NCBI GenBank assembly: GCA_030765065.1
Contig: CM060988.1
Span: forward strand, 197,716,565-197,780,564
Direction: 5' to 3'
DNA: 64,000 nt
Origin: Deroplatys truncata
Taxonomy: Eukaryota; Arthropoda; Insecta; Mantodea; Mantidae
The notes under the pieces were generated by a model. The model did no database searches, had not been told where the DNA came from, and saw only the letters and a program-made list of their open reading frames with translations. Numbering within the stretch: position 1 is the first letter of the stretch; every line of letters starts with the position of its first letter. Of the stretch, positions 4,781-54,229 are shown piece by piece. The position numbers were made by a program, and so were the translations under genes.

Positions 4781-6308
4781 TCAAACATGTTTATGTGGCG
4801 TTTTACTCTCATGAACCAACCCATGTCTTTTCAAATGTGATAGCCGTGCAAAACTCTTACTGCAAACATTACATTTGTGTGGCTTTTTGCCCTCATGAAT
4901 CAAACTATGTATCTTCAAATTCCCTAGCTGAGTAAAACTCTTATTGCAAAAATTACATTTGTGAGGCTTTTTACCCTCATGAATTAAACTGTGTCTTTTC
5001 AAACTCCCATGCTCAGTAAAAAGCTTATTGCAAGCATTACATTTGTGTGGCTTTTTACCATCATGAATCAAACTGTGTCTCTTCAAATCTGATATCCGAG
5101 AAAAGCTCTTATTGCAAACATTACATTTGTGTGGTTTTCTACCCTCATGAATCAAATTGTGTTTTTTTAAATATCCTAGCAAAGCAAAGGTCTTATTGCA
5201 AACATTACATTGGTGTGGCTTTTTGCCCTCATGAATCAAACTGTGTGTTTTCATATGCCGTAGCTCAGTAAAGCCCTTACTGCAAACATTACATTTGTGT
5301 GGTTTTCTAACCTCATGAATCCAATTGTGTTTTTTTAAATATCTTAGCAAAGCAAAGCTCTTATTGCAAACATTACATTTGTGTGGCTTTTTGCCCTCGT
5401 GAATCAAACTGTGTGTTTTCAAATGCCGTAGCTCAGTAAAGCCCTTACTGCAAACATTACATTTGTGTGGCATTGTGCCCTGATGAATCCAAATGTGCAT
5501 TTTTAATTGTGATAGCCAAACAAAGCTCATATTGCAAACACTGCATTTGTATGGCTTTTTGCCTTCATGAATCACACTGTGTGTTTTCAAATTCCCTAAA
5601 TGAGTAAAGCTCTTATTGCAAACAGTGCATTTGTGTGGCCTTCTGCCCTCATGAATCAAACTATGTGTTTTCAAATTTGATAACCTAGGAAAGCGCTTAT
5701 TGCAAACATTACATTTGTGTGGTTTTCTACCCTCATGAATCAAATTGTGTTTTTTTAAATATCCTAGCAAAGCAAAGGTCTTATTGCAAACATTACATTG
5801 GTGTGGCTTTTTGCCCTCATGAATCAAACTGTGTGTTTTCATATGCCGTAGCTCAGTAAAGCCCTTACTGCAAACATTACATTTGTGTGGTTTTCTAACC
5901 TCATGAATCCAATTGTGTTTTTTTAAATATCTTAGCAAAGCAAAGCTCTTATTGCAAACATTACATTTGTGTGGCTTTTTGCCCTCATGAATCAACCTGT
6001 GTCTCTTCAGTGTTTGTTGCAGAGTGAAGCTCTTCTGGCAAATGTCACAGTTGTGTATCTTCTTTTCTTCATGAATCAAATCAGGCACTTTCATTGCTGA
6101 TTTGCCAGGAAATATTTTTCCTAAAGGCTTGCATTGTATTTCTGCATCCCTAATCAGAACTTGCTTTTTTGAAGGTAATACTGATATACAAATTTTACCA
6201 TTATCAACATCCTTCTTAGATCTGTGGGAAAAAACATTTTTAGCTGTTTGGGATGGGCCCATAGCTTCTACTCCAGGAGTTTCAGAGCAAACTGTATCTG
6301 CAATTAAC
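4781..6308 (-). CDS. C2H2 zinc-finger protein, terminal exon (15 fingers)
   Basis: The open frame is 493 codons from an internal ATG at 6262. It stays open back to 6308, where a clean 3' splice site (pyrimidine-rich tract then TTTTTCAG) precedes GTTAATTGCA, so this is probably a last exon and not an intronless gene. After about 70 residues without fingers come 15 tandem C-X2-C-X12-H-X3-H fingers of 28 residues, joined by HEGKKPHK-type linkers in place of the usual TGEKP. The protein ends HESKTPHKHV. Many fingers have Leu at helix position -1 (e.g. FALLRYLKKH), atypical for base contacts. Fingers 2-4 and 9-11 are identical. Such arrays generally bind DNA in the nucleus; the target is unknown. 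Upstream exons are not identified: splicing from 14709 directly would be out of phase. Copy 2 (49736-51429) is broken. Confidence 0.85.
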
Positions 6309-6814
6309 CTGAAAAATTATAAAAAAAATGTCATTAATTTGAGATATGAGTGTATACATAATTCACTAATAACCCTGAAAGGAAATTGGTATTCAGTTAC
6401 TAAAAGAGAAAATATAATGTCCTTGAAATCTATTCTGGATTATACTTCTGAAGGTTGTATGAATTAGTTATTTATTCATAAGTAGTTCCATCAAATACTA
6501 TTATTTGACACTGATCATACAGTTTAAATTTATCAATTGAAGGCAGTTATTTTGATGTGTGCTAGATTTTAAATTTCAGAAATTCCAGAACTTTAAAAAC
6601 AGGAAAACCTTTAGTTACACACTTTTAGGGAATACTTTTAAAAGGTTTCAAATCATAATATACCACTATTAGCAGTAGAAGTAATTTGTAAGAGTGCCAC
6701 AACCAAGTAACACAGTCACCCACTAGGCAGACCTTCTACCAGCATCACATGGCTCACCATATGTTTGACTTCTGACCGGAGGACAGCACAACTGTATACA
6801 CCCTGCAGTAGTCA
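6309..6814 (-). other. Intron sequence upstream of the finger exon, with 3' splice acceptor
   Basis: The acceptor AG is at 6310-6309 on the minus strand, preceded by a T-rich tract. The same acceptor, with the same first exon bases, is present in copy 2 (AG at 51431-51430). Conservation in both copies supports real splicing. The rest matches copy 2 intron sequence and shows no coding frame. Confidence 0.65.
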
Positions 6815-12430: not shown

Positions 12431-13674
12431 CTGCAGAAGGAGAAAGGAATTAAATTTGAAAATAATAATATCATACCCAAGTAGTCTAAGATGACTGTAT
12501 TTTAAAAACCCAATGGTTATGATAACCACTATACAAAATATTGCCTGAAGGTATCCTCACATGTGTCTGTGTTAACTTATCCAGAACTGAAGTTCCCTAT
12601 CTTTATATGACAAGATTGTTGAATCAGAAAGGAAAATTTCTTAGTCCTGTGATCATTTATTCATATTATTAGTGCCACACATCTTTTGCAGAATCCCAGC
12701 TTACTGCAGGAACTGGGGCTATCAAATTTCCCTATGCTAGATAGTGGGAAGAGTTACTGTCTTTTTATTTTTTAGTTTAGTGTCAATTAACTGGTTAGGT
12801 TACATTGGATAAGTTATTAATTGTCTGGCAACTGAAGAGAAATACTAATCTTGTGACGAAGGAAATCACCTAAAGCTTAGCTAGAATTATAGGTATAGAC
12901 TGGAGCAAATGAGGTCTTTTAGCATCGCAGCCAGTAGTTTGTCTAAAGCACATACATGGCTTCTCTTAGCAAGGGAGTACAGAGAATGGCCGGATTAGGA
13001 ACAGCAAATGCAATTAGGCGGATCCTAATATTTGCAGATGTAGCATTATAATACTGGTGTGATTCTCTCAATGCTCCTCCTATCTGCAAATAGAGGTCAA
13101 GACAGGAGCTTTCCCTTAAAGCATGGACCATCCACATCAAGTCTGAACAGAAGGTTCTATGCTAGACACCAAGGTAGATAATATTTCTCAAAGTTTGTCT
13201 ACCATAACTAAAACTGATGTTAAAGAAATTAAATACATAACAGCCATTGTTATTCCATTTTATCTACTACTCTGGTTTCTGAATGCTGTAAGCAGTTGTT
13301 GTAGCAGCAGTAGTTGTAATATTTAAATTATCTGCTACCCTCAATAAAAACACAATGGCTGTCATAGTACTGAGATATTAACCTTATGAACACTTGAGCA
13401 TATATCTTATGTTGGGCATCATCTTAGACTCTTTGTGAGGATTACAGTAAGCTTATAATTTTATAAGAAAATCAGTATAATTGTGAATGAAAACTAAGGT
13501 TTACTATAATCCCTCTTCTTGTTAATAGGAACATAGTTGTCACTGATGTTTCATGAGAAAATGCAACAATTTTATAACAAGCTTTAATCAATCACTTGGA
13601 AAGGTTGTAAGCAGTAAGAGATATAAGATGAAGAATTAAAGTTAAAAAGTCAGCTGGAGAATTTAATGGGGTGC
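12431..13674. other. No recognisable feature
   Basis: Similarity to copy 2 stops at about 12430. Beyond this I find only AT-rich unique-looking sequence with short, unconvincing open frames (e.g. 12943-13140 minus). No tRNA, known repeat or splice-bounded exon was recognised. Confidence 0.4.
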
Positions 13675-13834
13675 CGGCATGTTGCCATGGTAGCTCAGTG
13701 GTTAGAGCAACCAGACGGAGACCGGGAGATCCGTGGTTCAAATCCCGGCTATGGCATTGAATTTTTCAGTCATCTGATTCTACCTTTCCAACCCTGTCCA
13801 ACATACGGCTTGTGTGAAGGAACAATTAATTCCA
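13675..13834 (+). mobile_element. tRNA-derived SINE, family A
   Basis: The head at 13684-13755 folds as a tRNA: acceptor GCCATGG pairs with CTATGGC, the D arm is GCTC/GAGC, the anticodon stem is CCGG-type, and the B box is GGTTCAAATCC. The T stem is poorly paired, so it is a SINE head and not a working tRNA gene. A tail of about 80 bases follows (ATTGAATTTTTCAGTC..., then ACCTTTCCAACCCTGTCC), also found in the inverted pair at 47024-47253. Confidence 0.8.
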
Positions 13835-20680: not shown

Positions 20681-21267
20681 AGCGCGGCCAGAGCGGCAAC
20701 CAATCGAAGTTCCGCTGTGTTGTCATATTGCATTCGCCGTAAGCTAAGCGTGATGCGTGCTAAGCGAATGTGTTTCTAATACATATAATTTGCACTAAGA
20801 CAAAAATTCAAATTTTGCAAAAAGTAACCCACTAGAAGGTAGAGAGTAATTTTCGTAGCACAACCGTAAAAACCACATATTTTTAGCTCAAATAGTTTTC
20901 ATAATACAAACAAATAAACATTCCCATATGTTATAATATAACCACGTAAGCACTGTAATGGTCACATTATTTGTATGTATGCATTATTGTATACATTATG
21001 TATATATATTTGTAATTATACAGAACTACAGACTTGATGGTGATAAAGAATTATGTTGTAAAACCAAGGCGTTTGTTAAAGCTGAGAGAGAGCAAACAGC
21101 CCACCAAGCTCACTTGTGTTACTTGTAGAATCTGCAGAACGTGAGCCGTTACATGTTTATGATTGTGTGTTATTTTTAAATCTGGGTTGCAGTTTATTTA
21201 CCCTACACAGTTAATATCAGTATTCAGTTGTTGTTCAGAGAGCAAGCAGCAAGAGTAAAATAGTGTA

Positions 21268-22682
21268 ATGGCTTATTGTGGTGAATTTAGTGGCGAGTCA
21301 AACAGGCAGGTATTGCGAAGTCAGGCTCGAAGTATTATATTTAGGGTCTACTCGTTTTTTAAAAAATGTAACAATGAGGAACACAGAAATCAACTTGATT
21401 TCAAAAATCCTCAACAGCTTACTGCTAAAGCGTGTGGTGTCGGTAAAGCAAGTGTGTCTCGCATTTGCGGAGAGGCAAGAAAATCTGTTCCCAATGATAC
21501 TCCAGTGTTTGTATCGCCCAGAAAGCACATTGGACCTCCGAAGAGGATTACAAATTTAACTGACTTTGAGAAGGACGTTGTACGCAGAACTGTGTTCGAG
21601 TTTTATGACCAAGGTGAATTCCCAACAATACAGAAAATAACTTGTGCCCTTAGAACTAAAATATCATACACTGGTTCAAATTCATCTACTTATAGAATTT
21701 TGAGAGGATTAGGGTTCAGGTACAGAAAGACAATGATGGGCGACAATTTTTAATGGAGAGGAGTGACATTGTTGCGGCAAGAATAAAATTCTTACGCAAA
21801 ATGCACGAAATTCGGAATTCTTGCGATACGAGACCTATATTTTACTTAGATGAGACATGGGTAAATAAAAACCACACTCAAAATTCAATCTGGCAAGATT
21901 CCTCAAAAAAGGGTGGCCTGAAGGTACCTGTTGGAAAAGGCAGTCGACTTATCATTTGTCATGTAGGGTCCGCTAAGACAGGATTTGTACCTGAAAGCAA
22001 ATGGATTTTTCTGTCCAAAACCACCTCAGATTATCACGAAGAGATGACAGCTGATACGCTTAAGGAATGGTTTTTGAACAGATTCCCAAATTATTTAGAA
22101 GAGGGAAGCATAATTATAATGGATAATGCACCATATCATTCGGTTATTGAAAACAAAGTACCGAATACTGCCAGTAGAAAGAACGAAATTGTTGAATGGT
22201 TGCAAAAAAAGGGGGTTGAATTTTCGGCAACAGAAACTAAAAATGAGTTACTGCAACGAGTACTTCCATTTAAAAACCAGGGAAAAGTGTATCAGCTGGA
22301 TCAACTTGCAATGGAAATGGGACACGAGGTAATCCGCCTCCCCCCTTATCACTGCCAGTATAATCCAATTGAGTTAGTATGGGCTCAAATAAAACGAGGG
22401 GTTGCAAACAGAAAAAACACTTTTAAACTGACTGACGTTGAACGTCTTATTCACGAAGAAATTGACAAGGTAACTCAACAAGACTGGGAAGCTTGCATGA
22501 GACATGCAGAAAAACTACAAGAAGACGACTTTTGGAAAGAAATAGGCCGTGACGATATTTTGGAACCTATCATCATAAATTTGCAAGACTCAGACGATGA
22601 AGACAGTGTCAGTGACAAATTGCCTCTTCACGTAACTGATGACAGTGATACGGATGAGCCACTGGCAGTTCCATTGGATTAA
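21268..22682 (+). pseudogene. DD82E transposase, broken by one frameshift
   Basis: The first open part (161 codons) carries a helix-turn-helix region (about residues 60-85: ...LTAKACGVGKASVSRICGEA). The second (309 codons, from 21753) carries the DDE core: FYLDETW (first Asp, residue 33 of this part), IIMDNAPYH (second Asp, 124) and QYNPIELVW (Glu, 207), with 82 residues between second Asp and Glu. The tail is acidic (DSDDEDSVSD). The parts overlap at TAATGG; the frame change lies near 21732, where one missing base would explain it. Everything else is open, so the copy is young. In an intact copy it would cut and paste at the element ends. A programmed shift is possible but no slippery site is evident. 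Confidence 0.85.
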
Positions 22683-31773: not shown

Positions 31774-34700
31774 GCTCTATGACTTGAGCAGGTCAAAACA
31801 TGAGTACTTTATAAACTGAGCAGTTCAAAACACGATTACTCTATGACTTGAGCAGTTCAAAACTTGAGCACTCCATGAGCTGAGCAGTTCAAAACATGAA
31901 TAGTCTATGACTTGAGCAGTTCAGAACATGAGTACTCTATGAGCTGAGCAGTTCAAAACATGAATACTCTATGACTTGAGCCGTTCAGAACATGAGTACT
32001 TTATAAACTGAGCAGTTCAAAACATGATTACTCTATGAGCTGAGCAATTCAATACATGAATACTCTATGAGTTGAGCAGTTCAAAACTTGAGTACTCTAT
32101 GAGCTGAGCAGTTCAAAACATCAATACTCTATGACTTGAGCAGTTCAGAACATGAGTACTCTATGAGCTGAGCAGTTCAAATAATGAATACTCTATGACT
32201 TGAGCAGTTCAGAACATGAGTACTTTATAAACTGAGCAGTTCAAAACATGGTTACTCTATGAGCTGAGGAGTTCAAAACATGAATACCCTATGACTTGAG
32301 CAGTTCAAAACTTGAGTACTCTATGAGCTGAGCAGTTCAAAACATGAATACTCTATGACTTGAGCAGTTAAGATAATGAGTACTTTATAAACTGTGCAGT
32401 TCAAAACATAAGTACTGTATGAGCTGAGCAGTTCAAAACATAAATACTCTATGAACTGAGCAGTTCAAAACATGAATACTCTATGACTTGAGCAGTTCAG
32501 AACATGAGTACTCTATGACCTGAGCAGTTCAAAACATGAATACTCTATGACTTGAGCCGTTCAGAACATGAGTACTTTATAAACTGAGCAGTTCAAAACA
32601 AGATTACTCTATGAGCTGAGCAATTCAATACATGAATACTCTATGAGTTGAGCAGTTCAAAACTTGAGTACTCTATGAGCTTAGCAGTTCAAAACATGAG
32701 TACTCTATTACTTGAGCAGTTCAGAACATGAGTACTCTATGAGCTGAGCAGTTCAAAACATGAATACTCTATGACTTGAGCAGTACCGAACATGAGTACT
32801 TTATGAGCTGATCATTTCAAAACATGAGTACTCTATGAGCTGAGAAGTTCAAATCATGAATACTCTATGACTTTAGCAGCTCAGAACATGAATACTTTAT
32901 GAGCTGAGCACTTCAGAACATAAATACACTATGAGCTGAGCAGTTCAAAACATGAATACTCTATGAGCTGAGGCAGTTCAAAACATGAGTACTCTATGAG
33001 CCGAGTAGTTCAAAACATGAATACCGTATGCGCTGAGCAGTTCAAAACATGATAACTCTATGAGCTGAGCAGTTCAACACATGAATACTGTATGCGCTAA
33101 ACAGTTCAGAACATGAATACTCTATGAGCAGAGCAGTTCAAAACATAAATACCCTAAGAGCTGAGCAGTTCAGAACATGAGTACTCTAAGTGTTGAGCAG
33201 TTCAAACATGATTACTCTATGAGCTGAGCAGTTCAAAACATGAACACTCTACAAGCCGAGCAGTTCAAAACATGAATACTCTATGACTTGAGCAGTTCAA
33301 GACATGAATACACTATGAGCTGAGCAGTTCAAAACTTGAGTACTCTATGAGCTGAGCAGTTCAAAACATGAATAGTCTATGACTTGACCAGTTCAGAACA
33401 TGAGTACTCTATGAGCTGAGCAGTTCAAAACATAAATACTCTATGACTTGAGCAGGTCAAAACATGAGTACTTTATAAACTGAGCAGTTCAAAACACGAT
33501 TACTCTATGAGCTGAGCCGTTCAAAACATGAATACTCCATGACTTGAGCAGTTCAAAACTTGAGCACTCTATGAGCTGAGCAGTACAAAACATGAATAGT
33601 CTATGACTTGACCAATTCAGAACATGAGTACCCTATGAGCTGAGCAGTTCCAAACATGAATACTCTATGACTTGAGCCGTTCAGAACATGAGTACTTTAT
33701 AAACTGAGCAGTTCAAAACATGATTACTCAATAAGCTGAGCAATTCAATACATGAATACTCTATGAGTTGAGCAGTTCAAAACTTGAGTGCTCTATGAGC
33801 TGAGCAGTTCAAAACATGAATACTCTATGACTTGAGCAGTTCAGAACATGAGTACTCTATGAGCTGAGCAGTTCAAATAATGAATACTCTATGACTTGAG
33901 CAGTTCAGAACATGAGTACTTTATAAAGTGAGCAGTTCAAAACAAGGTAATTCTATGAGCTGAGCAGTTCAAAACATGAACACCCTATGACTTGAGCAGG
34001 TCAAAACTTGAGTACTCTATGAGCTGAGCAGATCAAAACATGAATACTCTATGACCTGAGCGGCTCAGAACATGAGTGCTCTATGAGCAGAGCAGTTCAA
34101 AACATGAATACTCTATGACTTGAGCAGTTCAGATAATGAGTACGTTATAAACTGAGCAGTTCAATACATAAGTACTGTATGAGCTGAGCAGTTCAAAACA
34201 TGAATACTCTATGAACTGAGCAGTTCAAAACATGAATACTCTATGACTTGAGCAGTTCAGAACATGAGTACTCTATGAGCTGAGCAGTTCAAAACATGAA
34301 TACTCTATGACTTGAGCCGTTCAGAACATGAGAACTTTATAAACTGAGCAGTTCAAAACATGATTACTCTATGAGCTGAGCAATTCAATACATGAATACT
34401 CTATGAGTTGAGCAGTTCAAAACTTGAGTACTCTATGAGCTTAGCAATGCAAAACATGAGTACTCTATGACTTGAGCAGTTCAGAACATGAATACTCTAC
34501 AAGCCGAGCACTTCAAAACATGAATACTCTATGACTTGAGCAGTTCAGAACGTGAGTTCTTAATAAACTGAGGAGTTCAAAACATGATTACTCTATGAGC
34601 TGAGCTGTTCAAAACATGATTACTCGATGACTTCAGCTGTTCAAAAACTGAGCAACCTATGAGCTGAGCAGTTCAAAACATGAATACTCTATGAGCTGAG

Positions 34701-37700
34701 CACTTCAAAACATGAATACTCTATGACTTGAGCAGTTCAGAACGTGAATACCCTATGAGTTGAGTAGTTCAGAACATAAATACTCTATGAGCTGAGGAGT
34801 TCAAAACATGAATACCCTATTAGTAGAGCAGTTCAAAACATGAGTAGTCTATGAGCTGAGCAGTTCAAAACATGATTACTCTATTAGCTAAACAGTTCAA
34901 AACATGGTTACTCAATGAGCTAAGCCGTTCAAAACATGAATACTCTATGACTTGAGCAGTTCAGAACATGAATACTCTATAACCTGAGCAGTTCAGAACA
35001 TGAATACTCTATGAGCTGAGCAGTTCAAAACATGAATACACTAAGAGCTGAGCAGTTCAACACATGAGTACTCTATGAATTGAGCAGTTCAAAACATGAG
35101 TATTCTATGAATTGAGCAGTTCAAAACATGAATACTCTACGAGCCGAGCAGTTCAAAAAATGAGTACTCTATGACTTGAGCAGTTCACAACATGAACACT
35201 CTACGAGCTGGACAGCTCAAAACATGAATACCCATGAGCCGAGCCGATCAAAACATGAATACCCTACGAGCCAAATAGTTCAAAACATGAATGTTCTTTG
35301 AGAAAAAAAGTTCAAAACATGAAAACTCTCAGAGCCAGGTAGTTCAAAACATGAGTACGCTATGAGCTTAGCAGTTCAAAACATGAATCCTCTTTGAGCG
35401 AAGTAGTTCAAGACGTGAATCCTCTTTGAGCCAAGTAGTTCAAAACATGAGCACTCTATGAGGTGAGCAGTTCAAAACATGAATCCTCTTTGAGCGAATT
35501 AGTTCAAAACATGAATCCTCTTTGAGCCAAGCAGTTCAAAACATGAGTACTCTATGACCTGAGCAGTTCAAAACATGAATCCTCTTTGAGCGAAGTAGTT
35601 CACAACATGAATCCTCTTTGAGCCAAGCAGTTCAAAACAAGATTATTCTATGAGCTGAGCAGTTCAAAACATGAATCCTCTTTGAGCGAAATAGTTCAAA
35701 ACATGAATCCTCTTTGAGCCAAACAGTTCAAAACAGAAGTACTCTACAAGCTGAGCATTTCAAAACATGAGTACTCTACAAGCTGAGCAGTTCAAAACAT
35801 GAGTGCTCTACTAGCTGAGCAGTTCAAAACATGGGTACTCTACAAGCAGAGCAGTTCAAAACATGAGTACTCTATGAGCTGAGCAGTTCAAAAGATGAAT
35901 ACTCTAAGAGCCGAGCAGTTCAAAACATGAGTACTCTATGAGCTGAGCAGTTCAAAACATGAATACTCTACCAGCCGATCAGTTCAAAACATGAGTACCC
36001 TTTGAGCCAAGCAGTTCAAAACATGAATACTGTACAAGCTGAGTAGTTCAAAACATGAGTACTCTATGAACTGAAAAGTTCAAAACATGAATACTCTACA
36101 AGCTGAGCAGTTCAAAACATGAATACTCTACAAGCTGAGCAGTTCAAAACATGAATACTCTATGAGCTGAGCAGTTCAAAACATGAATACTCTACAAGCC
36201 GAGCAGTTCAAAACATGAGTACCCTTTGAGCCAAGCTATTCAAAACATGAATACTCTACAAGCTGAGCAGTTCATAACATGAGTACTCTATGGGCTGAGC
36301 AGTTCAAAACATGGGTACCCTATGAGCTGAGCAGTTCAAAACATGAATACTCTACAAGCCGAGCAGTTCAAAACATGAGTACACTATGAGCTGAGCCGTT
36401 CAAAACATGAATACTCTACAAGCCGAGCAGTTCAGAACATGAGGACCCTTTGAGCCACACGGTTCAAAACATGAATACTCTACAAGCTGAGCAGTTCAAA
36501 ACATGAATACTCATTGAGCCAAGTGGTTCAAAACATTATTACTGTTGAGCTGAGCAGTTCAAAACATGAATACTCTACAAGCCGAGCAGTACAAAACATG
36601 ATTACTCTGTGAGATGAGCAGTTCAAAACATGAGTACTCTATGAGCTGAGCAGTTCAGATAATGAGTGCTGTGTGAGCTGAGCTGTTCAAAAATGAGCAC
36701 TCTGTGAGCTGAGGAGTTCAAAACATGAATACTCTACAAGCTGAGCAGTTCAAAACATGAGTACTCTATGAGCTGATCAGTTCAAAACATGAGTACTCTA
36801 TGAGCTGAGCAGTTCAAAACATGAATATTCTACAAGCCGAGCAGTTCAAAACATGAGTACTCTATGAACTGAGCAGTTCAGAACATGAATACTCTACAAT
36901 CCGAGCAGTTCAAAACATGAGTACTCTATGAGCATAGCAGTTCAAAACATGAATAATCTACAAGCCGAGCAGTTCAAAACATGAGTACTCTACAAGCTGA
37001 GCAGTTCAAAACATGAGGACTCTATGAGCTGAGCAGTTCAAAACGTGAGTACTCTATGAGCTGAGCAGTTCAAAACTTGAATATTCTACAAGCCGAGCAG
37101 TTCAAAACATGAGACTCTATGAGCTGAGCAGTTCAAAACATGAATATTCTACAAGCCGAGCATTTCAAAACATGAGTACTCTATGAGCTGAGCAGTTCAA
37201 AACATGAATACTCTACAAGCCGAGCAGTTAAAAGCATGAGTACTCTTTAAGCTGAGCAGTTCAAAACATGAATACTCTACAAGTCGAGCGTTCAAAACAT
37301 GAGTACTCTTTAAGCTGAGCAGTTCAAAACATGAATACTCTACAAGCCGAGCAGATCAAAACATGAGTACTCTATGAGCTGAGCAGTTCAAACCATGAAT
37401 ACTCTACAAGCTGAACAGTTCAAAACATGAATACTGTACAAGCTGATCAGTTCAACACATGAGTACTCTTTGAGCTAAGCAGTTCAAAACATGAATACTC
37501 TACAAGCTGAGCAGTTCAAAACATGAGTACCCTTTGAGCCAAACAGTACAAAACATGATTACTCTACAAGCTGAGCAGTTCAAGACATGAGTAGTGTTTG
37601 AGCCAAGCAGTTCAAAACATGATTACTCTACAAGCTGAGCAGTTCAAAACATGAGTGCTGTGTGAGCTGAGCAGTTAAAGCATGTGTACTCTGTGAGCTG

Positions 37701-39435
37701 AGCAGTTCAAAACATGAATACTCTACAAGCCGAGCAGTTCAAAACATGAGTACTCTCTGAGCCAAGCAGTTCAAAACATGAATACTCTACAAGCCGAGCA
37801 GATCAAAACATGAGTACTCTATGAGCTGAGCAGTTCAAAACATGAATACTCTACAAGCTGAACAGTTCAAAACACGAATACTGTACAAGCTGATCAGTTC
37901 AAAACACGAGTACTCTTTGAGCCAAGCAGTGCAAAACATGAATACTCTACAAGCTGAGCAGTTCAAAGCATGAGTACTCTTTGAGCCAGACAGTACAAAA
38001 CATGATTACTCTACAAGCTGAGCAGTTCAAAACATGAGTACTGTTTGAGCCAAGCAGTTCAAAACATGATTACTCTACAAGCTGAGCAGTTCAAAACATG
38101 ATTACTCTACAAGCTGAGCAGTTCAAAACATGAGTGCTGTGTGAGCTGAGCAGTTAAAGCATGTGTACTCTGTGAGCTGAGCAGTTAAAGCATGTGTACT
38201 CTGTGAGCTGAGCAGTTCAAAACATGAATACTCTACAAGCTGAGCAGTTCAAAACATGAGTGCTGTGTGAGCTGAGCAGTTAAAGCATGTGTACTCTGTG
38301 AGCTGAGCAGTTAAAGCATGTGTACTCTGTGAGCCGAGCAGTTCAAAACATGAGTACTCTTTGAGCCAAGCAGTTCAAAACATGAATACTCTATAAGCCG
38401 AGCAGTTCAAAACATGAGTACTCTATGAGCTGAGCAGTTCAAAACATGAATACTCTACAATGCTGAGCAGTTCAAAACATGAATACTCTATAAGCTGAGC
38501 AGTTCAAAACATGAGTACTCTACAAGCCGAGCAGTTTAAAACATGATTACTCTGTGAGCTGAGCAGTTCAAAACATGAGAACTCTATGAGCTGAGCAGTT
38601 CAAAACATGAGTGCTGTGTGAGCTGAGCAGTTGAAAATATCAGTACTCTTTGAGCCAAGCAGTTCAAAACATGAATACTCAACAAGCTGAGCAGTTCAAA
38701 ACATGAGTACTCTTTGAACCAAGCAGTTCAAAACATGATTACTCTACAAGCTGAGCAGTTCAAAACATGAATACTCTACAAGCTGAGCAGTTCGAAACAT
38801 GAGTACTCTTTGAGCCAAGCAGTTCAAAACATGATTACTCCACAAGCTGAGCAGTTCAAAACATGAGTACTCTTTGAGCCAAGGAGTTCATAACATGAAT
38901 ACTCTACAAGCCGAGCAGTTCAAAACATGAGTACTCTTTGAGCCAAGCAGTTCAAAACATGAATACTCTACAAGCCGAGCAGTTCAAAACATGATTACTC
39001 TGTGAGCTGAGCAGTTCAAAACATGAGTACTCTATGAGCTCAGCAGTTCAGAACATGAGTGCTGTGTGAGCTGAGCAGTTCAAAACGTGAATACTCTGTG
39101 AGCTGAGCAGTTCAAAACATGAGTGCTGTGTGAGCTGAGCAGTTCAAAACATGAGTACTCTGTGAGCTGAGCAGTTCAAAACATGAGTACTCTGTGAGCT
39201 GAGCTGTTCAAAACATGAACACTCTTTGAGCCGAGCGGTTCAAAACATGAGTGCTGTGTGAGCTGAGCACTTCAAAACACGAGTACACTGTGGGTTAGGT
39301 AGTTCAAAACATGAGTACTCTATAAGCTGGGCACATGAAGACAGGAGTACCCTATGAGCTGAACAGTTGAAAATAATGAGAGCTTTGTGAACTGGATAGT
39401 TCAAAATGTGAGTTCTGTCAGCTGGACATTGCAGT
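31774..39435. repeat. 32-bp satellite array, ~240 units, with higher-order structure
   Basis: The unit is 32 bp, with core GAGCAGTTCAAAACATGAGT followed by ACTCTATGAGCT. About 7.66 kb gives roughly 240 copies. The left half (to about 35200) mixes variants (CTTGAGCAGTTCAGAAC, TTTATAAACTG) in a higher-order pattern: the rare variant GAGCCGTTCAGAAC recurs at 31981, 32557, 33677 and 34317, separated by 576, 1120 and 640 bp (18, 35 and 20 units). The middle (35280-35720) has TCCTCTTTGAGC variants. The right half is dominated by a 64-bp dimer alternating CTACAAGCCGAGCAG with CTATGAGCTGAGCAG. Units decay at the right edge. Since 32 is not a multiple of 3, no long frames arise. Confidence 0.97.
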
Positions 39436-40599
39436 TCAAACTCGGCTTATTGTCAAGGATGGTTTAAGCTATCTTTCTGACTTTCGTTGAAAGAAAGTTA
39501 GTAGATGAATCAGGCAATGTGTTACTGGTGGATTATGTGTTTGTTAATGAGATGTTGGAATTAAATACACATGAAAGCAGCAATCAACACACTGAAACTG
39601 AAAATATCATCATTGCAATCATTACCATTATTATTAAGTCAGTATTTTTTCCTAAGTGTGAACAGAAAAGGAGAACTTCCAGTCTGCCCTGAATATTTTT
39701 CCAAACATTTTGGCAAAACTTGAAAAGACTTTAGTTCATTGCTACTATTAATGTGTAATAAGGTACGGTTTTTGAGGAAAACAGAAAGGTCAAACGAGAA
39801 AAGTGTTTGAGGACCATTTTTCTTAAGTTGATTTGAAGCATGTCTATTTTTCAGGAAGCACACCTTTTTAAATATCAAACTGAAACACTTATTGTATTAA
39901 CAAAGTAACTGAACATTAACACTATGTTTTAAAGCATGTGTTTGACACTTCCAACATTTTCGTTGATAAAATTGAAAATGTAAGATCAAATTTCCAAGAT
40001 TCCCAACAAATGATGCAAAGCTGGAAAGCTAAAGTTTATTAATATACACTTTCAAAATATAACTTTTTTCTTTTCCTGTATTTTTTTAAAGATATTGTAA
40101 AGAAGGCAACTTTATTGTACTTGTTACTATTTAGTATGACATTGTTTTATAAGAGTTTGATAAACATAAGTAAAAAATAATAACATATGATGATCAGAAT
40201 ATAATAAAAACAATACAAATTCAAGTAATACAAATCCAGAAACCTAATGGTGACTTTAAATAGATGCCGTTTTAAAATGCTTTACAAGCTTTAAGACATC
40301 CTTTCACTTATTCTTACTGACCATGTTCCTTTTTTACAAAGTGGCTTGTTTACTTGCTTACTGCAGTTATTGGACTTCCAATATAAGTGTTGTGGAAAGC
40401 CTGGACACCTAAGCTGCAAGAGATCAACATATCTGCTAAGACTAACTTGAAGAGGACCACATTGGCACCGCAATTGCCTTCCCTTCGCTTCATCTCTGAA
40501 GACCTAGGGAGAAGATGCCATTTTAACTTAAAATCCCAATCCTGAAGACAATGCCAAGCAAGACTATGCCTGAAGGTCAAGGCGACCTTACACCTGACC
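39436..40599. other. Mostly unassigned, with possible upstream Gypsy sequence
   Basis: No intact gene. From about 40360 to 40599 there may be more decayed Gypsy pol, but I could not anchor it with a motif. A CCGKPGHL-like string near 40388 is too incomplete to call a zinc knuckle. 39436-40360 shows nothing I recognise. Confidence 0.35.
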
Positions 40600-41530
40600 A
40601 AGGAACCACCGGCAATAATTGGGATGAGACCTTGAGAAAGGAGCAACAGGAAGATCGATTCATCAGGCAGATCCTGCAGGATAAATAATCTGTCATATGA
40701 CCAGCATGGGAGAATGTCGCTCCCGGAGGCCTAACCTATAAGAGTTATTGGGTCCAGTGGGACTCCCTTGGTGTCAGGAAAAGTGTGCTTAAGAGAGTTT
40801 GGGAGTCAGAAAACCAGGTGGAACAGCCGGTGTTCCTGAGGACTAAGATGAACCAGGTCCTCAAAAAACCCATGCTGGTACTATCAGAGGGCACATGAGT
40901 GTAAATCAAACCATGAAGAAACTATGTCATGATTCAAATGTGAAGCCATGTGGAAAGGTGGTGCCAGCACTGCAACACCTGCTCAGCAATTCGGAAAAAA
41001 ATAGACTGAGGTTTATTTACGGATGCTCAATTACTATGATTCTTAGCGTCCCATTCCATATATTAGAAGTTAAAGACCACAAAGTTTGCTCAGAGGCCTC
41101 TTTATCAGGCTTGATGTTCTTTTACGTGTCATAAATATACAACATAGGACCACCAGCTTTACTTCCCTTCTGAATGAAGCCATGTTAAGGACTTTTATGT
41201 CTGAAAAAGATTCCATCGCCCTCTGCTGGTTTTGAACCTCGATCTTGGAAACCAGAAGTTAGCATTCCTCAAGTCGAGGGTCTCCATCATATAGTCAGGG
41301 ACAAGGTGGCAACATGAAGTTCGTGGGCCAAATGCAGGCTAGGAATCGTCATGGCAAGTGGCCGGATAAAGGCATATTATGACCGTGTGGAAAACAGTGC
41401 CTGATTTCAGGAATGTGACCTCCTATAGCTCTATCATCCCGTGAGCACTAAGGGGAGGTCGATGAAGAAGCAATGTTCCTAGGACGCCCCTACAAAGTAG
41501 TCACTCGTACCAACCAGGTTGCATACTACA
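40600..41530 (+). pseudogene. Ty3/Gypsy-type pol relic: integrase N- and C-terminal pieces
   Basis: Pieces in order: NWDETLRKEQQEDRFIRQIL (about 40617), YKSYWVQWDSLGVRK and LKRVWES (about 40740-40815), the region before the integrase; GHMSVNQTMKKL (about 40890), then in another frame WCQHCNTCSA (about 40961-40990), the HHCC zinc-binding module. After a SINE insertion and loss of the catalytic core come GRIKAYYDRVENSA (about 41352-41393), FQECDLL, LYHP and PYKVVTRTNQVAYY (about 41490-41531), the C-terminal GPY-like module. Stops and frameshifts are frequent. No LTRs are recognised. The frame then runs on into the first unit of the 78-bp satellite. Confidence 0.8.
41004..41268 (-). mobile_element. 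SINE family B inside the Gypsy relic
   Basis: The family body is clear (TTTATTTACGGATGCTCAAT ... GGACCACCAGCTTTACTTCC ... TTTTGAACCTCGATCTTGG). It inserted between the integrase zinc module and its C-terminal module. The outer end of the tRNA-like head is lost and no clear target duplication is seen. Confidence 0.8.
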
Positions 41531-41544
41531 ATCAGAATAAACAC

Positions 41545-44500
41545 TGAGAGATGCTGATGGTGATTCATCTTGATCGCCTTGCTGCATATTGTAGAATGAT
41601 GAACAGCTCTGAGAAGAGAGCTATATGATGCTGATGGAGATTCAACTGGATTGCCTTCCTGCATAGCATGATGAACAGCTCTGAGAAGGGAGCTGTGTGA
41701 CACTGGTGGTTGTTCATCTTGATCGCCTTCCTGCATATCACAAAATGATGAACAGCTCTGAGAGGGAACTGTGTGACTCTAATGGTAGTTAATCTTCATT
41801 GCCTTCCTGAATATCATGAAACAATGAACAGCTCTGAGAAGGGAGTTGTGTGACGCTGAGGTTGGTTTATCTTGATAGCATTGCTGCATATCGCAAAATG
41901 ATGAAAAGCTGCGAGGGGGAGCTGTGTGATGCTGATAGTGGTTCATCTTCATTCCTTTCCTGGATATTATGAAACAATGAGCAGCTCTGAGAAGGGAGTT
42001 GTGTGACGCTGATGGTGGTTCATCTTAATAATCTTGCTGCATATTGTGGAATGACGAACAGTGCTGAAAAGGGAACTGTCTGATGGTAATGGTGTGTTTA
42101 TCTTCATAGCCTTGCTGCATTCTGTAGAATGACAAACAGCTCTGAGAACAGATCTACATGATGCTGATAGTGGTTCATCTTAATGGCCTTGCTGCATATT
42201 GTGGAACGATGAACAGCTCTAGAAGGAAGGTGTGTGGCGCTGATGGTGGTTCATCTTGAGAGCATTGCTGCATATTGTGGAATGACTAACAGCTTTGAGA
42301 AGGGAGCTGTGTGACTATGATGGTGGTTCATCTTGATAGCTTTGCTGCATATTGTGGAACAATGAACAGCTCTGAGAAGGGAGCTGTGTGACACTGATGG
42401 TGTGTTCATCTTGATAGCTTTGCTGCATATTGTGGAATGACGAATAGCTCTGAGAAGGGAGCAGTGTGACACTGATGGTGTGTTCATCTTGATAGCTTTG
42501 CTCCATATTGTGGAACAACAAACAGCTCTGAGAAGGGAGCTGTGTGACACTGATGGTGTGTTCATCTTGATAGCTTTTCTGCATATTGTGGAATGACGAA
42601 TAGCTCTGAGAAGGGAGCAGTGTGACACTGATGGTGTGTTCATTTTGATAGCTTTGCTGCATATTGTGGAACAACAAACAGCTCTGAGAAGAGAGCTGTG
42701 TGGCACTGATGGTGTGTTCATCTTGATAGCTTTGCTGCATATTGTGGAATGACGAATGGCTCTGAGAAGGGAGCAGTGTGACACTGATGGTGTGTTCATC
42801 TTGATAGCTTTGCTGCATATTGTGGAACAATGAACAGCTCTGAGAAGGGAGCAGTGTGACACTGATGGTGTGTTCATCTTGATAGCTTTGCTGCATATTG
42901 TGGGACAACAAACAGCTCTGAGAAGGAACATGTGTGGCGCTGATGGTGTTTCATCTTGATAGCTTTGCTGCATATTGTGGAACAACAAACAGCTCTGAGA
43001 AGGGAGCTGTGTGACACTGATGGTGTGTTCATCTTGATAGCTTTGCTGCATATGGTGGGACAACAAACAGCTCTGAGAAGGAACATGTGTGGCGCTGATG
43101 GTGTTTCATCTTGAGAGCATTGCTGCATATTGCGGAATGAGTAACAGCTTTGAGAAGGGAGCTGTGTGACACTGATGGTGGTTCATCTTGATAGCTTTGC
43201 TGCATATTATGGGACAACAAACAGCTCTGAGAAGGGAGCTGTGTGACACTGATGGTGTGTTCATCTTGATAGCTTTGCTGCATATTGTGGAACAACAAAC
43301 CGCTCTGAGAAGGGAGCTGTGTGACACTGATGGTGTGTTCATTTTGATAGCTTTGCTGCATATTGTGGAATGACGAATAGCTCTGAGAACGGAGCTGTGT
43401 GACACTGATGGTGTGTTCATTTTGATAGCTTTGCTGCATATTGTGGAATGACGAATAGCTCTGAGAAGGGAGCTGTGTGACACTGATGGTGTGTTCATCT
43501 TGATAGCTTTGCTGCATATTGTGGATTGACGAATAGCTCTGAGAAGGGAGCTGTGTGACTCTGATGGTGTGTTCATTTTGATAGCTTTGCTGCATATTGT
43601 GGAATGACGAATAGCTCTGAGAACGGAGCTGTGTGACACTGATGGTGGTTCATCTTGATAGCTTTGCTGCATATTGTGGAATGACGAATAGCTCTGAGAA
43701 GGGAGCTGTGTGACACTGATGGTGTGTTTATCTTGATAGCTTTGCTGGATACTGTGGAATGACGAATAGCTCTGAGAAGGGAGCTGTGTGACACTGATGG
43801 TGTGTTCATCTTGATAGCATTGCTGCATATTGTGGAACAACAAACAGCTCTGAGAAGGGAGCTGTGTGACACTGATGGTGTGTTCATTTTGATAGCTTTG
43901 CTGCATATTGTGGAACAATGAACAGCTCTGAGAAGGGAGCTGTGTGACACTGATGGTGTGTTCATCTTGATAGCATTGCTGCATATTGTGGAACAACAAA
44001 CAGCTCTGAGAAGGGAGCTGTGTGGCACTGATGGTGTGTTCATCTTGATAGCATTGCTGCATATTGTGGAACAACAAACAGCTCTGAGAAGGGAGCTGTG
44101 TGACACTGATGGTGTGTTCATTTTGATAGCTTTGCTGCATATTGTGGAACAATGAACAGCTCTGAGAAGGGAGCTGTGTGACACTGATGGTGTGTTCATC
44201 TTGATAGCTTTGCTGCATATTGTGGAACAACAAACAGCTCTGAGAAGGGAGCTGTGTGACACTGATGGTGTGTTCATTTTGATAGCTTTGCTGCATATTG
44301 TGGAATGACGAATAGCTCTGAGAAGGGAGCTGTGTGACACTGATGGTGTGTTCATTTTGATAGCTTTGCTGCATATTGTGGAACAACAAACAGCTCTGAG
44401 AAGGGAGCTGTGTGACACTGATGGTGTGTTCATTTTGATAGCTTTGCTGCATATTGTGGAACAATGAACAGCTCTGAGAAGGGAGCTGTGTGACACTGAT

Positions 44501-46115
44501 GGTGTGTTCATCTTGATAGCATTGCTGCATATTGTGGAACAACAAACAGCTCTGAGAAGGGAGCTGTGTGACACTGATGGTGTGTTCATTTTGATAGCTT
44601 TGCTGCATATTGTGGAACAATGAACAGCTCTGAGAAGGGAGCTGTGTGACACTGATGGTGTGTTCATCTTGATAGCATTGCTGCATATTGTGGAACAACA
44701 AACAGCTCTGAGAAGGGAGCTGTGTGACACTGATGGTGTGTTCATTTTGATAGCTTTGCTGCATATTGTGGAACAATGAACAGCTCTGAGAAGGGAGCTG
44801 TGTGACACTGATGGTGTGTTCATCTTGATAGCTTTGCTGCATATTGTGGAACAACAAACAGCTCTGAGAAGGGAGCTGTGTGACACTGATGGTGTGTTCA
44901 TTTTGATAGCTTTGCTGCATATTGTGGAATGACGAATAGCTCTGAGAAGGGAGCTGTGTGACACTGATGGTGTGTTCATTTTGATAGCTTTGCTGCATAT
45001 TGTGGAACAACAAACAGCTCTGAGAAGGGAGCTGTGTGACACTGATGGTGTGTTCATTTTGATAGCTTTGCTGCATATTGTGGAACAACAAACAGCTCTG
45101 AGATGGGAGCTGTGTGACACTGATGGTGTGTTCATTTTGATAGCTTTGCTGCATATTGTGTAACAACAAACAGCTCTGAGAAGGGAGCTGTGTGACACTG
45201 ATGGTGTGTTCATTTTGATAGCTTTGCTGGATACTGTGGAATGACGAATAGTTCTGAGAAGGGAGCAGTGTGACACTGATGGTGGTTCATCTTGATAGCT
45301 TTGCTACATACTGTGGAATGACGAATAGCTCTGAGAAGGGAGCTGTGTGACACTGATGGTGGTTCATCTTGATAGCTTTGCTACATACTGTGGAATGACG
45401 AATAGCTCTGAGAAGGGACAGTGTGATGCTGATGGTGGTTGATCTTGATAGCTTTGCTACATACTGTGGAATGACGAATAGCTCTGAGAAGGGACAGTGT
45501 GATGCTGATGGTGGTTCATCTTGATAGCTTTGCTGCATATTGTGGAACAATGAACAGCTCTGAGAAGGGAGCTGTGTGACACTGATGGTGGTTCATCTTA
45601 ATAGCTTTGCTACATACTGTGGAATGACGAATAGCTCTGAGAAGGGACAGTGTGATGCTGATGGTGGTTCATCTTGATAGCTTTGCTGCATATTGTGGAA
45701 CAATGAACAGCTCTGAAAAGGGAGCTGTGTGACACTGATGGTGTGTTTATCTTGATAGCTTTGCTGGATACTGTGGAATGACGAATAGCTCTGAGAAGGG
45801 AGCTGTGTGACACTGATGGTGTGTTCATCTTGATAGCATTGCTACATATTGTGGAACGATGACCAGCTCTGAGAAGGGAGCTATTTGACAATGATGATGG
45901 TTCATCTTCATCACCTTTCTGCATATCCTGAAATGATGAACAACGCTGAAAATGGAACTGTGCCGCTGATGGTATGTTGATCTTACTAACTTTGCTGCAT
46001 ATTGTGGAACGATGAACTGCTCTGAGAAGGGAATTGTGTGGCACTGATGGTGTGTTCAGTTTGATAGCCTTGCTGCATACTGTGGAATGACTAACAGTTC
46101 TTTGAAGGGAGCTGT
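41545..46115. repeat. 78-bp satellite array, ~58 units, derived from Gypsy integrase 3' end
   Basis: The unit is 78 bp (a few are 77), with core CAGCTCTGAGAAGGGAGCTG, then TGTGACACTGATGGTG, TTCATCTTGATAGC and TGCTGCATATTGTGGAA. The first unit reads, in the integrase frame, MLMVIHLDRLAAYC, the usual end of Gypsy integrases (MMVVHLDRLAPY-like); degraded versions of those codons recur in every unit. The edges (41545-42250 and 45900-46115) are most diverged and the centre most uniform. A variant set repeats every 624 bp (8 units), e.g. TGGAATGACGAATAG at 44301 and 44925. As 78 is a multiple of 3, frames of up to 687 codons stay open on the minus strand; 77-bp units break them. Confidence 0.95.
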
Positions 46116-46874
46116 GTGATGCTACAGCTGTAGATCAAGTGTAATTGGAGGTCGACAGTTGGAGACATTAACAGAGTTGAGTGACGCGGTAGTGCTCTTG
46201 CCCAGCCTAACATCAAAATGATTATCAATATATAATCAGAACTTTGTAAAGCTCCTCTTCCGCTTCCTCTCTGCTTCCAGAATGTGTGTAAGAATGTTCT
46301 GCAGAAACTTCCATCGGCTATTTAGACAGAGGATTCGCCAGTCCATTGATTAGTTAGTGAGTGCATTTCTGCTGCAACATCAAATGCGGTTCTACAAGCA
46401 AGTTTATGACGATAGTGAGTGCTGCTAATGAGGGAGACTAAGAGATGTATTGTGTTTGATTTTCCAGTGAGTGAAGTAGAGGCTGCTTGGGGAGTAATTT
46501 TACTGCCTGACAGGAAACTGAAGTTGTTCACATTAGTGAAAAGAGGGTGTGAATTAAGTGAGTAACAGTGAAGGTTGAGCTAGATCAAAACACTGAAGTG
46601 GCAGAGAGTACCTGTAAAGTGACAGTGATAACTGGACAGTTACAATATTGAGAGACAAGAAATTTGAACAAGTTTTGAAAATAAAAGTTCTTTGAGGTTG
46701 TAGATAGGAAGGTTTGTAACCTTATTTTTAAAGCATACAGAAATTATAATAACAAGGAACTTTCGAATGTACCTGCTCATTATATTCTGATGTATATGGT
46801 TATCTTTGCGTTAATTGTGTTTCTCAGGGTGCTTCTCGTCGTAAGAGTTACTTATGAGTATTTTTGGTTTCTAA
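46116..46874. other. No recognisable feature
   Basis: Sequence between the 78-bp array and the second duplicated block. No supported exon, RNA gene or repeat. Confidence 0.4.
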
Positions 46875-47023
46875 TAGTATTTATAGAGCTCACTTGTTTA
46901 TTTTGGTTAACCTACTTTTGGGCAGTATATTTTAAAGCATTATTTTTCCAATAGGGTGGTTTTAAACAGAACTCCTCAAACATATTTTTAAAATTTCATA
47001 TAAAGTGATTATATGTAAATGTG

Positions 47024-47253
47024 AAATTAATTGTTCTTTCACACAAGCCGTGTGTTGGACAGGGTTGGAAAGGTAGAATCAGGTGACTGAAAAATTCAAT
47101 GCCATAGCCGGGATTTGAACCACGGATCTCCCGGTGTCGTGTCGGCATGTTGCCATGGTAGCTCAGTGGTTAGAGCAACCGGACGGAGACCGGGAGATCC
47201 GTGGTTCAAATCCCGGCTATGGCATTGAATTTTTCAGTCACCTGATTCTACCT
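47024..47253. mobile_element. SINE family A inserted as an inverted (head-to-head) pair
   Basis: Arms 47071-47135 and 47189-47253 are perfect 65-bp inverted repeats, each with the 3' part of the tRNA-like head and the start of the SINE tail. The minus-strand arm extends further into the tail (to about 47024); the plus-strand arm holds the fuller head (from about 47144) and stops at CTACCT. The whole insertion is flanked by ATATGTAAATGTG (47011-47023 and 47254-47266), and copy 1 has the empty site near 1296-1303. One duplication around both arms means they arrived in a single event. Confidence 0.9.
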
Positions 47254-49735: not shown

Positions 49736-51429
<1,694 letters not shown>

Positions 51430-54229
51430 CTAAAAAATTGCAAAAATATCATTATTAATTTGAGAAATGAATGTAGAGCTAATTAACTAATAAATCTAGA
51501 GGATACTGGTGTTCAATTACCAAAAGGAAAATGCAATGTTTTCTGAAATTTATCCTGGGTTATACTTCCAAACGCTGTATGAATTAGTTGTTTATTCAAA
51601 AGGAGTTCCATCAAATACTATTAGTCGATACTGATATAAAGTTTAAATTTATCAGTCGAAGGCAGTAGTTTTATGTGTGCTAAATTTTTAAGTTCAGAAA
51701 TTCATGTACTTTAAATACAAGAAAACCTTTACCTTATACCCCTACGGAAACCTTTAAGAAAGTATTAAATTAGAACATAACACTGTTATTGGAGCATGCA
51801 AAACAAGCTTGCCATTTCACCAAATGTACAGAAGGCCACTCTTGTGCCGTTATACCCATTGCATGGTGACATCATGCCCTTTTGGAGCTCAATATCAGTC
51901 AACTCCTCAGGTAGGCAAAGAGATTAGTGGAGAGAGAGGATCTATTGTTTGGTGGTTTCACAGGTGGTTTTATTTATTGAAGTGGAATATATTGTAAAGA
52001 AAACATACCTCCATTAAAATCTAAATTAGGAAGTGGCAAAACATTGCACAGTCAAATAAAAAATTATTTACAACAAATATAAATATATGAAAAATGTTTA
52101 CATGCTAGCCTATGTTTCCAGTGTTTTGTTTTCTGTCCTAAAGATTACTTAAATGCATTAACTTCCTTTTTTTGTTTTAATAAACGTACTTGGAGATGCA
52201 TTATAATGTTTTAATGACATTTTCCAACTGCGCTGTCTGACACAGGAATGTGTAGCTAGCTGATCTTCAAGCTAGTGCAAGTGCGAGGTGAGGCAAGTCA
52301 ACTTCATCCGAGCAGTGCCGAAGTTTTGCACATCTTCAGCTGGCAAGCAAGTTTTGATCCCCTCTAGTAATTTGCAAGAGCATCACAACCAAGAAAAACA
52401 GTCGCCCGCTAGAGAGACTTTCCATCAGCATATGGCTCATCGTATGTTTGACATCTGAATGGAAGGCAGAACAGTTTGTAGACATCCTTAACCCTGCAGT
52501 AGTTGCATGCACCAAAGTATCCCTTTCATTCCCATTTAACTTCTATGAACTTAAGAATCACGTGACTAAGTATCTTCCTATAATCAGCAGTACTGATATT
52601 TCTTTGTTTGATTTGGACTTGTGCAGTGGTTATTAAATGATCAACAATTGCAGACTGACCGTCCTATTTGGGCAACAACATTGGAAATTATCTGTATGGA
52701 TGCCATTAGCAATAAAGTGAGCTGTTGTAATCATACAATAGCTTATTCTCAAGGGTTTTCTTATTTATAAAGTTTCAATTGCTATTAGTCACGCCAGTTT
52801 GTTACGTTCAGTTAAGTGAACTGTTTTTTATTCACCTATAATTTTGCAGATTGGACCCTTATGAAACCAAGTTGAGAAAATGAGGAATACTGTTCATGAG
52901 ATCTTGGTGAGAGTGACTATGAAAGTTGAAGTATCATCTGAAGCACTGCAGAACCAATGTCTACATTTCATCCTGTTTATGACATTATTATTCGATATTT
53001 GTGAATTTGAAGCACATGTTAGATACTAACGAACTTACAATTTTAATGGAACTGGACGGGGTTTATTCTTTAATAGAACCTATGTATTTAGTAAATTGAA
53101 ATTCAAACATAGTAGATTTTACACTTTGTCACTAAGTTATAAATCTATACCTTTCCTCATTTGGACTCACAGTGAGCACTACTACAGTACAAAACTTTGT
53201 GCATCTTCTACAAGGTTAAGATGATGCTGAAAGTCTGCCATGGGACAATTTTAATATCCTCATATGCATTTGCCCAGAAAGAGGTTTAAATGCTAAATTC
53301 AATACAGTAATTGATGGTTTGAAATTATTTAAATTAAGAGAAGCAATTTCAAATTGACATGAATGTCATCAAGGGAATCATTCCCTTAATGAGCTTATTT
53401 GAATCAAGACACACTATTTCTTCAAATACTAATGCTTCTAGTGACATTTTGTGCTTGAAAAACCATAAAAAACTGAACACACTTTTCTCATTCTTACTTT
53501 GCTTTTTCACTATAGTGGATTTGGTGGCATTACTAGCACTGGATAAAGAATATAATCACTAAACTGGGTCCAATAAAGGCAACTGATAACGGCAATGTAC
53601 TGATCACTCCTTGAGATGTTAATAAACACCACTGGTTGGAAAGATCTTTTCTGAAATGCTAGTAGTTTCAGCTTAGATCCACATTTGGTACAGAATAAAC
53701 CCCAAAATGTACATTTAAGGTGAAAAAAATTAATACATCCTATATTTTTCTCATGAACAACTGAGCTGCAACATGCAAGTTTCACCGTATAAACAGGGAT
53801 ATGTGCAGATCATGAGGCACACTACACTATTATTATTTAATGAATCCACTAGAAGGGGTAGTAAGAGGAGCAACATCCTGCTTTCTTCATTAGAAAAACC
53901 GTTATGTCTTTGATGTTGAAGTATTATTAGCTTTATTCTCTTTTGTGATGACAGGGTTTCTTACAGAATAACATTACATATTCTCACTTTTTAACTGAAG
54001 CTGGAGGATTTTCAAACTTCTAGACATGCTGCTAATTCTTCTCATGTGAATCATGAGAATGAGAAGAATTAATGATTGTATCCTTTTTAAAGATATTGGA
54101 ATGATGGTTCAAACCTTCTTGACATTCTAGAATAAGGTCTTGTTAAAAGTAGTAGTGTTAAAACTCCTCATTATATCAAATTAAGCTTGCTACTTTAAGT
54201 GATTTGCGAATTCATATTGCCAAAGAACA
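51430..54229. other. Duplicated intronic or intergenic sequence, copy 2
   Basis: It matches 6309-9580 of copy 1, minus the SINE at 6815-7114 and the 8545-9245 stretch. No exon or promoter is supported. Confidence 0.5.

Follow-up and report, generated by a model that had tools for sequence, protein, structure and literature searches.

A tandem array that likely grew in place out of the terminal integrase codons of a dead Gypsy-type element in Deroplatys truncata

In the mantis Deroplatys truncata (genome, 4.29 Gb), a dead Gypsy-type element ends in integrase codons from which a tandem array of 59 units likely grew in place. The array lies in a 64,000-nucleotide stretch of contig C14 (CM060988.1, positions 197716565 to 197780564; here called the window), for which a preliminary description had proposed a satellite of about 58 units of 78 bp, begun as a tandem duplication of a retrotransposon's terminal coding segment. 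Here, we report the position of the array, the single-copy state of its unit elsewhere, the junction that the copies share, a series of copy numbers among paralogs, and a split between first and later units in four C14 loci. The beginnings of satellites are usually inferred long afterwards; in this one genome, paralogs of 1, 2, 28, 59, and 223 units stand together, and the flanks of the paralogous loci provide an independent tree.

The element relic and its array comprise the following features of the window, all on the plus strand.
40367..40447, relic of what we take to be a gag zinc knuckle (CCGKPGHLSCKR), from translation
40601..40996, relic of what are presumably the RNase H-integrase linker and the integrase zinc-binding region, from dispersed matches
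40997..41265, dispersed-repeat insertion within the relic, with copies (70 to 88%) at window positions 48339, 6868, 55376, 27854, and 25290
41266..41549, integrase C-terminal relic abutting the array, from 67 to 82% matches in 19 of 20 loci and from PF22938 across the junction
41550..46117, tandem array of 59 units (founder, 77 bp; core, 78 bp), from Tandem Repeats Finder (TRF) and wrap-around alignment
46118..46123, GATGCT, which closes the array and repeats the start of unit 1, from sequence comparison
46156..46876, relic of the 3' long terminal repeat (LTR), start placed by homology and end uncertain (about 46700 to 46876), from direct-repeat pairs elsewhere

TRF called the array at 41554 to 46119 (period, 78; 59 copies), and wrap-around alignment gave 59 full units followed by GATGCT. 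Together with the shared reading frame, both methods confirmed a tandem array next to a Gypsy integrase relic, with its count and unit size corrected to 59 and to a founder of 77 bp: unit 1 has 77 bases and the 78-base core units carry one additional T behind GGTG, so the founder was 77 bp and the extra T is derived. Divergence from the array's majority unit was highest at the outer units (mean differences, 14.1 in units 1 to 10, 4.3 in units 11 to 55, and 11.25 in units 56 to 59), several CG/TG/CA sites were among the most variable positions (CpG observed/expected, 0.18), and units 34 to 37 were identical to units 42 to 45. The 22-base array pattern had no match in viral contigs.

At the junction, PYKVVTRTNQVAYY (41488 to 41529) and MLMVIHLDRLAAYC (41551 to 41592) lie in the same frame with a TGA codon (41545 to 41547) between them; the full order in frame 0 is LGRPYKVVTRTNQVAYYNQNKH, TGA at 41545, EMLMVIHLDRLAAYCRMMNSSEKRAI, and TGA at 41626. 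The integrase frame thus runs into unit 1 as had been claimed, but across one stop codon, and the integrase C-terminal sequence placed earlier at about 41557 to 41598 belongs at 41551 to 41592. Across the window's own junction, Pfam family PF22938 (Integrase_p58_C) matched below its curated cut-off (E = 0.0085). The dispersed copy L028 has an open frame of 83 amino acids through the junction, ending LMVVHLDRLAAYCGGVREEQL, with PF22938 above the cut-off (E = 1.6e-8), as in the relative L039 (E = 3.7e-8); another relative, L040, fell below it (E = 6.8e-5). From this open frame and its domain match, the unit is read as integrase-coding over its initial 43 bases, up to and including AAYC. Judged on sequence, that assignment is clear for this part of unit 1 only; L028 has 7 bases after AAYC that are absent from the window and from the other five of six aligned dispersed copies, which leaves the ancestral reading and stop of the remainder ambiguous. 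A protein search with the junction piece found shared words with one candidate, which received no score, and a PDB search found no match.

Outside the C14 cluster described below, the copies covered carry no more than one unit. Eight dispersed loci (L023 to L028, L032, and L033) and nine loci on contig C1, all within 20.6 to 21.9 Mb (L014 to L022), were read. A single unit separates integrase segment from LTR in six of the eight dispersed loci, with part of one in L032 and none in L033, and in all nine C1 loci, of which L019 and L022 match without the start of the unit. The unit search of the genome, in which 39 of 79 candidates were scored, gave a single match of 46 to 86 bases at each of 33 places off C14. 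The unit match was 39 bases long in L032 and 22 bases in L031, with none in L033 or L030. Genomic Gypsy copies therefore do carry the unit at their 3' end, once and in the same place, and this single unit between integrase segment and LTR supports the proposed origin of the array by tandem duplication of a terminal coding segment.

The source was a shortened Gypsy-type LTR element, probably a non-autonomous derivative. Linker-region matches were spread over many contigs (at least 42; 40 of 490 candidates scored), a 65-amino-acid piece of the linker relic matched relics genome-wide (150 of 1,763 candidates scored), and L022 was the only one of the 20 loci without a match to the integrase C-terminal relic. 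Setting aside the insertion at 40997 to 41265, the spacing from linker to integrase C terminus was within 15 bases of the window's in seven of the eight dispersed loci, which are therefore without the integrase core; in L026, the spacing is longer by about 350 bases. A stretch homologous to the gag knuckle adjoins the linker in L012, L021, L022, and the dispersed L025, L027, and L033 (no gag match in the other five of the eight dispersed loci), so protease to RNase H are also missing where this can be judged. No Pfam match identified the knuckle and none above chance the linker region; both domain names are our own reading of the motifs.

Internal deletions shared by dispersed copies (seven of eight loci) fit a non-autonomous LTR derivative, and an integrase C-terminal domain (L028 and L039) with paired LTRs (L028, L023, L027, L030, and L031) marks Ty3/Gypsy. 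Reverse transcriptase and RNase H are absent from the short derivative, and the relatives L039 to L041 have longer pol frames, with an rve core in L039 (E = 1.5e-10). The window's 3' LTR sequence forms the direct-repeat pairs in those five paired loci (70.6% alike in L028); the LTR search gave at least 51 matches (40 of 1,594 candidates scored), and a search of the window found no 5' LTR for its own element copy. The proposed Gypsy integrase end therefore stands, with the element recast as a shortened derivative and the story common to seven paralogous loci.

These seven loci form a cluster of about 400 kb (C14, 197.76 to 198.12 Mb), and searches beyond the window recovered the same unit family at six further C14 loci. 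At the same site, they have 59 units (window), 223 (array T), 28 (L009), two each (L011 and L013), and one each (L010 and L012). Several copies share a colinear layout of relic, array site, LTR, and downstream segments, which in L010 and L013 extends to the repeats of a downstream zinc-finger gene; the fetched stretches of L009, L011, and L012 end earlier. Two further features belong to the series.
C14:197788363-197805277 (L036:1664 to L029:2778), array T, 223 units, 17 kb, found via its LTR
49736..51482 of the window, minus strand, broken gene presumably of the C2H2 zinc-finger type, downstream and within the duplicated segment, from open reading frames and from repeats matched in L010 and L013

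Array T has unit lengths of 71, 76, 77, and 78 that recur in blocks, and 49 of 147 pairs at a 76-unit offset are identical. Long head-to-tail arrays with a homogenized core, of 59, 28, and 223 units, are satellite DNA in structure; the three arrays located (window, T, and L009), in a search that skips very common words, all lie in this one cluster. An eighth C14 locus, L037, has gag and LTR pieces without linker, integrase, or unit, and the window's first 12 kb hold the downstream segments without the element.

In the LTR tree, 14 cluster rows stood apart from 4 dispersed rows (support, 100/99). Groups at 100 were T with L009, L011, and L013 ("C14-a"), L010 with L012, L030 with L031, and five C1 rows; the window was in none. 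The position of L012 in the integrase-segment tree was disregarded (insertion within the slice), and its position in the LTR tree was kept. The 58 rows of the unit tree comprised 19 of the window's 59 units, 10 of the 223 from T, 8 of 28 from L009, four units of L011 and L013, and 17 single copies. The first units of T, L009, L011, and L013 formed one clade (98/95) and later units another (99/96), a split that agrees in these four loci with the integrase-adjacent unit being basal, as expected earlier; the tree of the window's own array gave no resolution. A column was taken as diagnostic if at least 80% of core units had one state and no more than 20% of the 17 single copies shared it (n = 3 for the window). 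Window unit 1 had the single-copy state at all three (0/3 derived), as did units 2, 4, and 9; the median over all window units was 3/3 derived, and the first units of T and L009 had 5/12 and 3/9 derived states, respectively. Mean identity to single copies was also tried as a rooting test and set aside as uninformative, probably through private decay of the edge units.

Several results weigh against growth in place from an ancestral first unit. The window's unit tree (77 columns) did not resolve the position of unit 1, and the approximately unbiased (AU) test did not reject unit 1 nested in the window core (P = 0.256). By mean identity to single copies, unit 1 ranked 17th, 5th, and 5th of 59, not first. 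AU tests neither favored nor rejected a founder duplication shared by the window and C14-a (P = 0.256 for LTRs; P = 0.233 for units). The second units of L011 and L013 nest within the later units, beside the final units of T and L009; two units could therefore be either a beginning or what a contraction has left. The history can be followed across the copies, but growth need not have been one-way. The bootstrap of the 58-row tree, which covers a subset of units, had not settled. The would-be direct repeat is weaker in dispersed copies (GAAGCTG versus GACGCAG-like). Finally, the genome search ignores very common words and did not recover array T even when queried with T's own units, so arrays elsewhere may be missed.

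Growth in place would have begun with a shortened Gypsy-type element (gag zinc knuckle plus integrase ends) beside a zinc-finger gene, in a segment that would then have undergone repeated duplication. Some of the resulting copies would have acquired a tandem founder duplication that spanned the terminal integrase codons and the sequence to just beyond the pol end and fell between two short GATGCTG-like direct repeats 77 bp apart. From two units on, unequal exchange or slippage would expand the later units and homogenize the core, and the integrase-adjacent first unit would remain outside the exchange and decay in place. The arrays of the window, T, and L009 start and finish on GATGCT or GATGCTG. 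Such short direct repeats at the founder ends would fit slippage or microhomology-mediated duplication, and the identical blocks within the window and T arrays would fit unequal exchange; we infer slippage or end joining at direct repeats, with unequal exchange as the amplifier.

The C1 copies have arrays of other segments. Eight of the nine loci (L014 to L021) have 110- to 111-bp arrays across the pol end and LTR start, and five (L014, L015, L016, L018, and L020) have 93-bp arrays from the integrase zinc-binding segment, flanked by ACGTCGTC-like and ACGTAGTC-like octamers. The 111-bp unit starts inside the last part of the 77-bp unit, at AGAAG, a motif that occurs again in the LTR 110, 116, and 119 bases on in the array-free L022, L010, and L012, respectively. 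With less assurance than the growth of the window's array, it is somewhat more likely than not that one short, dead LTR element, spread by duplication of the zinc-finger cluster, gave birth to tandem arrays repeatedly: three or more founder segments (77 bp, pol end; 93 bp, integrase zinc-binding region; 111 bp, pol end/LTR start; and perhaps a fourth, 95 bp, in another cluster) would have been duplicated independently, each flanked by short direct repeats, and would have reached widely differing sizes in paralogs. In a second C14 region, L038:1-2949 (C14:204410000-204412948) holds a 95-bp array (at least about 32 copies) built from a related element's leader and the start of its LTR, and at C1:15.19 Mb, a 145-bp tandem array (L034:2955-4001) directly follows an LTR copy and extends past the fetched stretch.

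Alternatively, the array may already have been part of the mobile element and moved along with it, the single-unit copies having lost it. Its position, past the coding region and ahead of the 3' LTR, is that of the 3' untranslated region (UTR) repeats of plant Ogre elements in the portion of PMC7004042 consulted, and the skipping of common words weakens the absence of dispersed multi-unit copies. Yet none of the eight dispersed loci read and none of the 33 places off C14 has more than one unit or a short array within the element copy, and the multi-unit loci found all lie in one 400-kb cluster, which makes carriage by the element unlikely. That an unrelated satellite inserted into the relic, with the integrase likeness of unit 1 due to chance, would agree with the window's own integrase match being weak and below the cut-off; it is extremely improbable, refuted in substance by dispersed copies that carry one unit at that very site and by the open integrase frame of L028 through the unit. 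Selection might instead have kept or expanded the arrays, for example, as a source of small RNA or as regulatory sequence for the zinc-finger cluster, and this element did give rise to arrays more than once, out of several of its segments; the array's long minus-strand open frames are expected from a unit without stops there, and such a role is quite improbable.

Satellites from LTR elements are already known, and the present case adds graded paralogs and repeated births. In the consulted parts of PMC7004042 and PMC9659126, 3' UTR tandem repeats of Ogre (Ty3/gypsy) in Lathyrus and pea gave rise to satellites, a likeness in that a tandem array between the coding region and the 3' LTR of a Gypsy-group element was amplified to long arrays. 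Ogre has short arrays in many element copies, whereas no Deroplatys copy read elsewhere exceeds one unit, and the Deroplatys arrays found are paralogs of one locus whose unit starts within integrase codons. Coding parts of transposable elements, such as gag of LTR elements and open reading frame 2 of long interspersed nuclear elements, have likewise supplied the monomers of satellites, but the LTR-element rows of Table 1 there name the 3' UTR, LTR, or gag as source, not integrase (PMC9659126, as excerpted). In the excerpt of a 2025 review (PMC12628747), pol domains are listed as a satellite source, and arrays borne by miniature inverted-repeat transposable elements have monomers flanked by short direct repeats of at least 5 bp, the proposed driver of duplication; the repeats there are AT-rich and their carrier is a DNA transposon, whereas ours are GATGCT(G) and AGAAG in an LTR element. 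Among the open-licence papers listed by the literature search, judged by title and the opening of the abstract, none shows a graded paralog series built on an integrase-derived unit. Growth, contraction, homogenization, and the role of short direct repeats are directly testable at the C14 loci.

Elsewhere in the window, a second gene that we take to be of the C2H2 zinc-finger type lies at 4781 to 6316 (minus strand; open frame, 511 amino acids); both zinc-finger genes have 84-bp finger repeats. A 32-bp minisatellite (31775 to 39373, about 238 copies) ends about 1 kb ahead of the Gypsy relic. A Tc1/mariner-like transposase at 21259 to 22682 has two overlapping frames, the second 72% identical to predicted protein P0001, and a palindrome at 47071 to 47253 has 68-bp arms (99% complementary) and is matched at 13671 to 13834.

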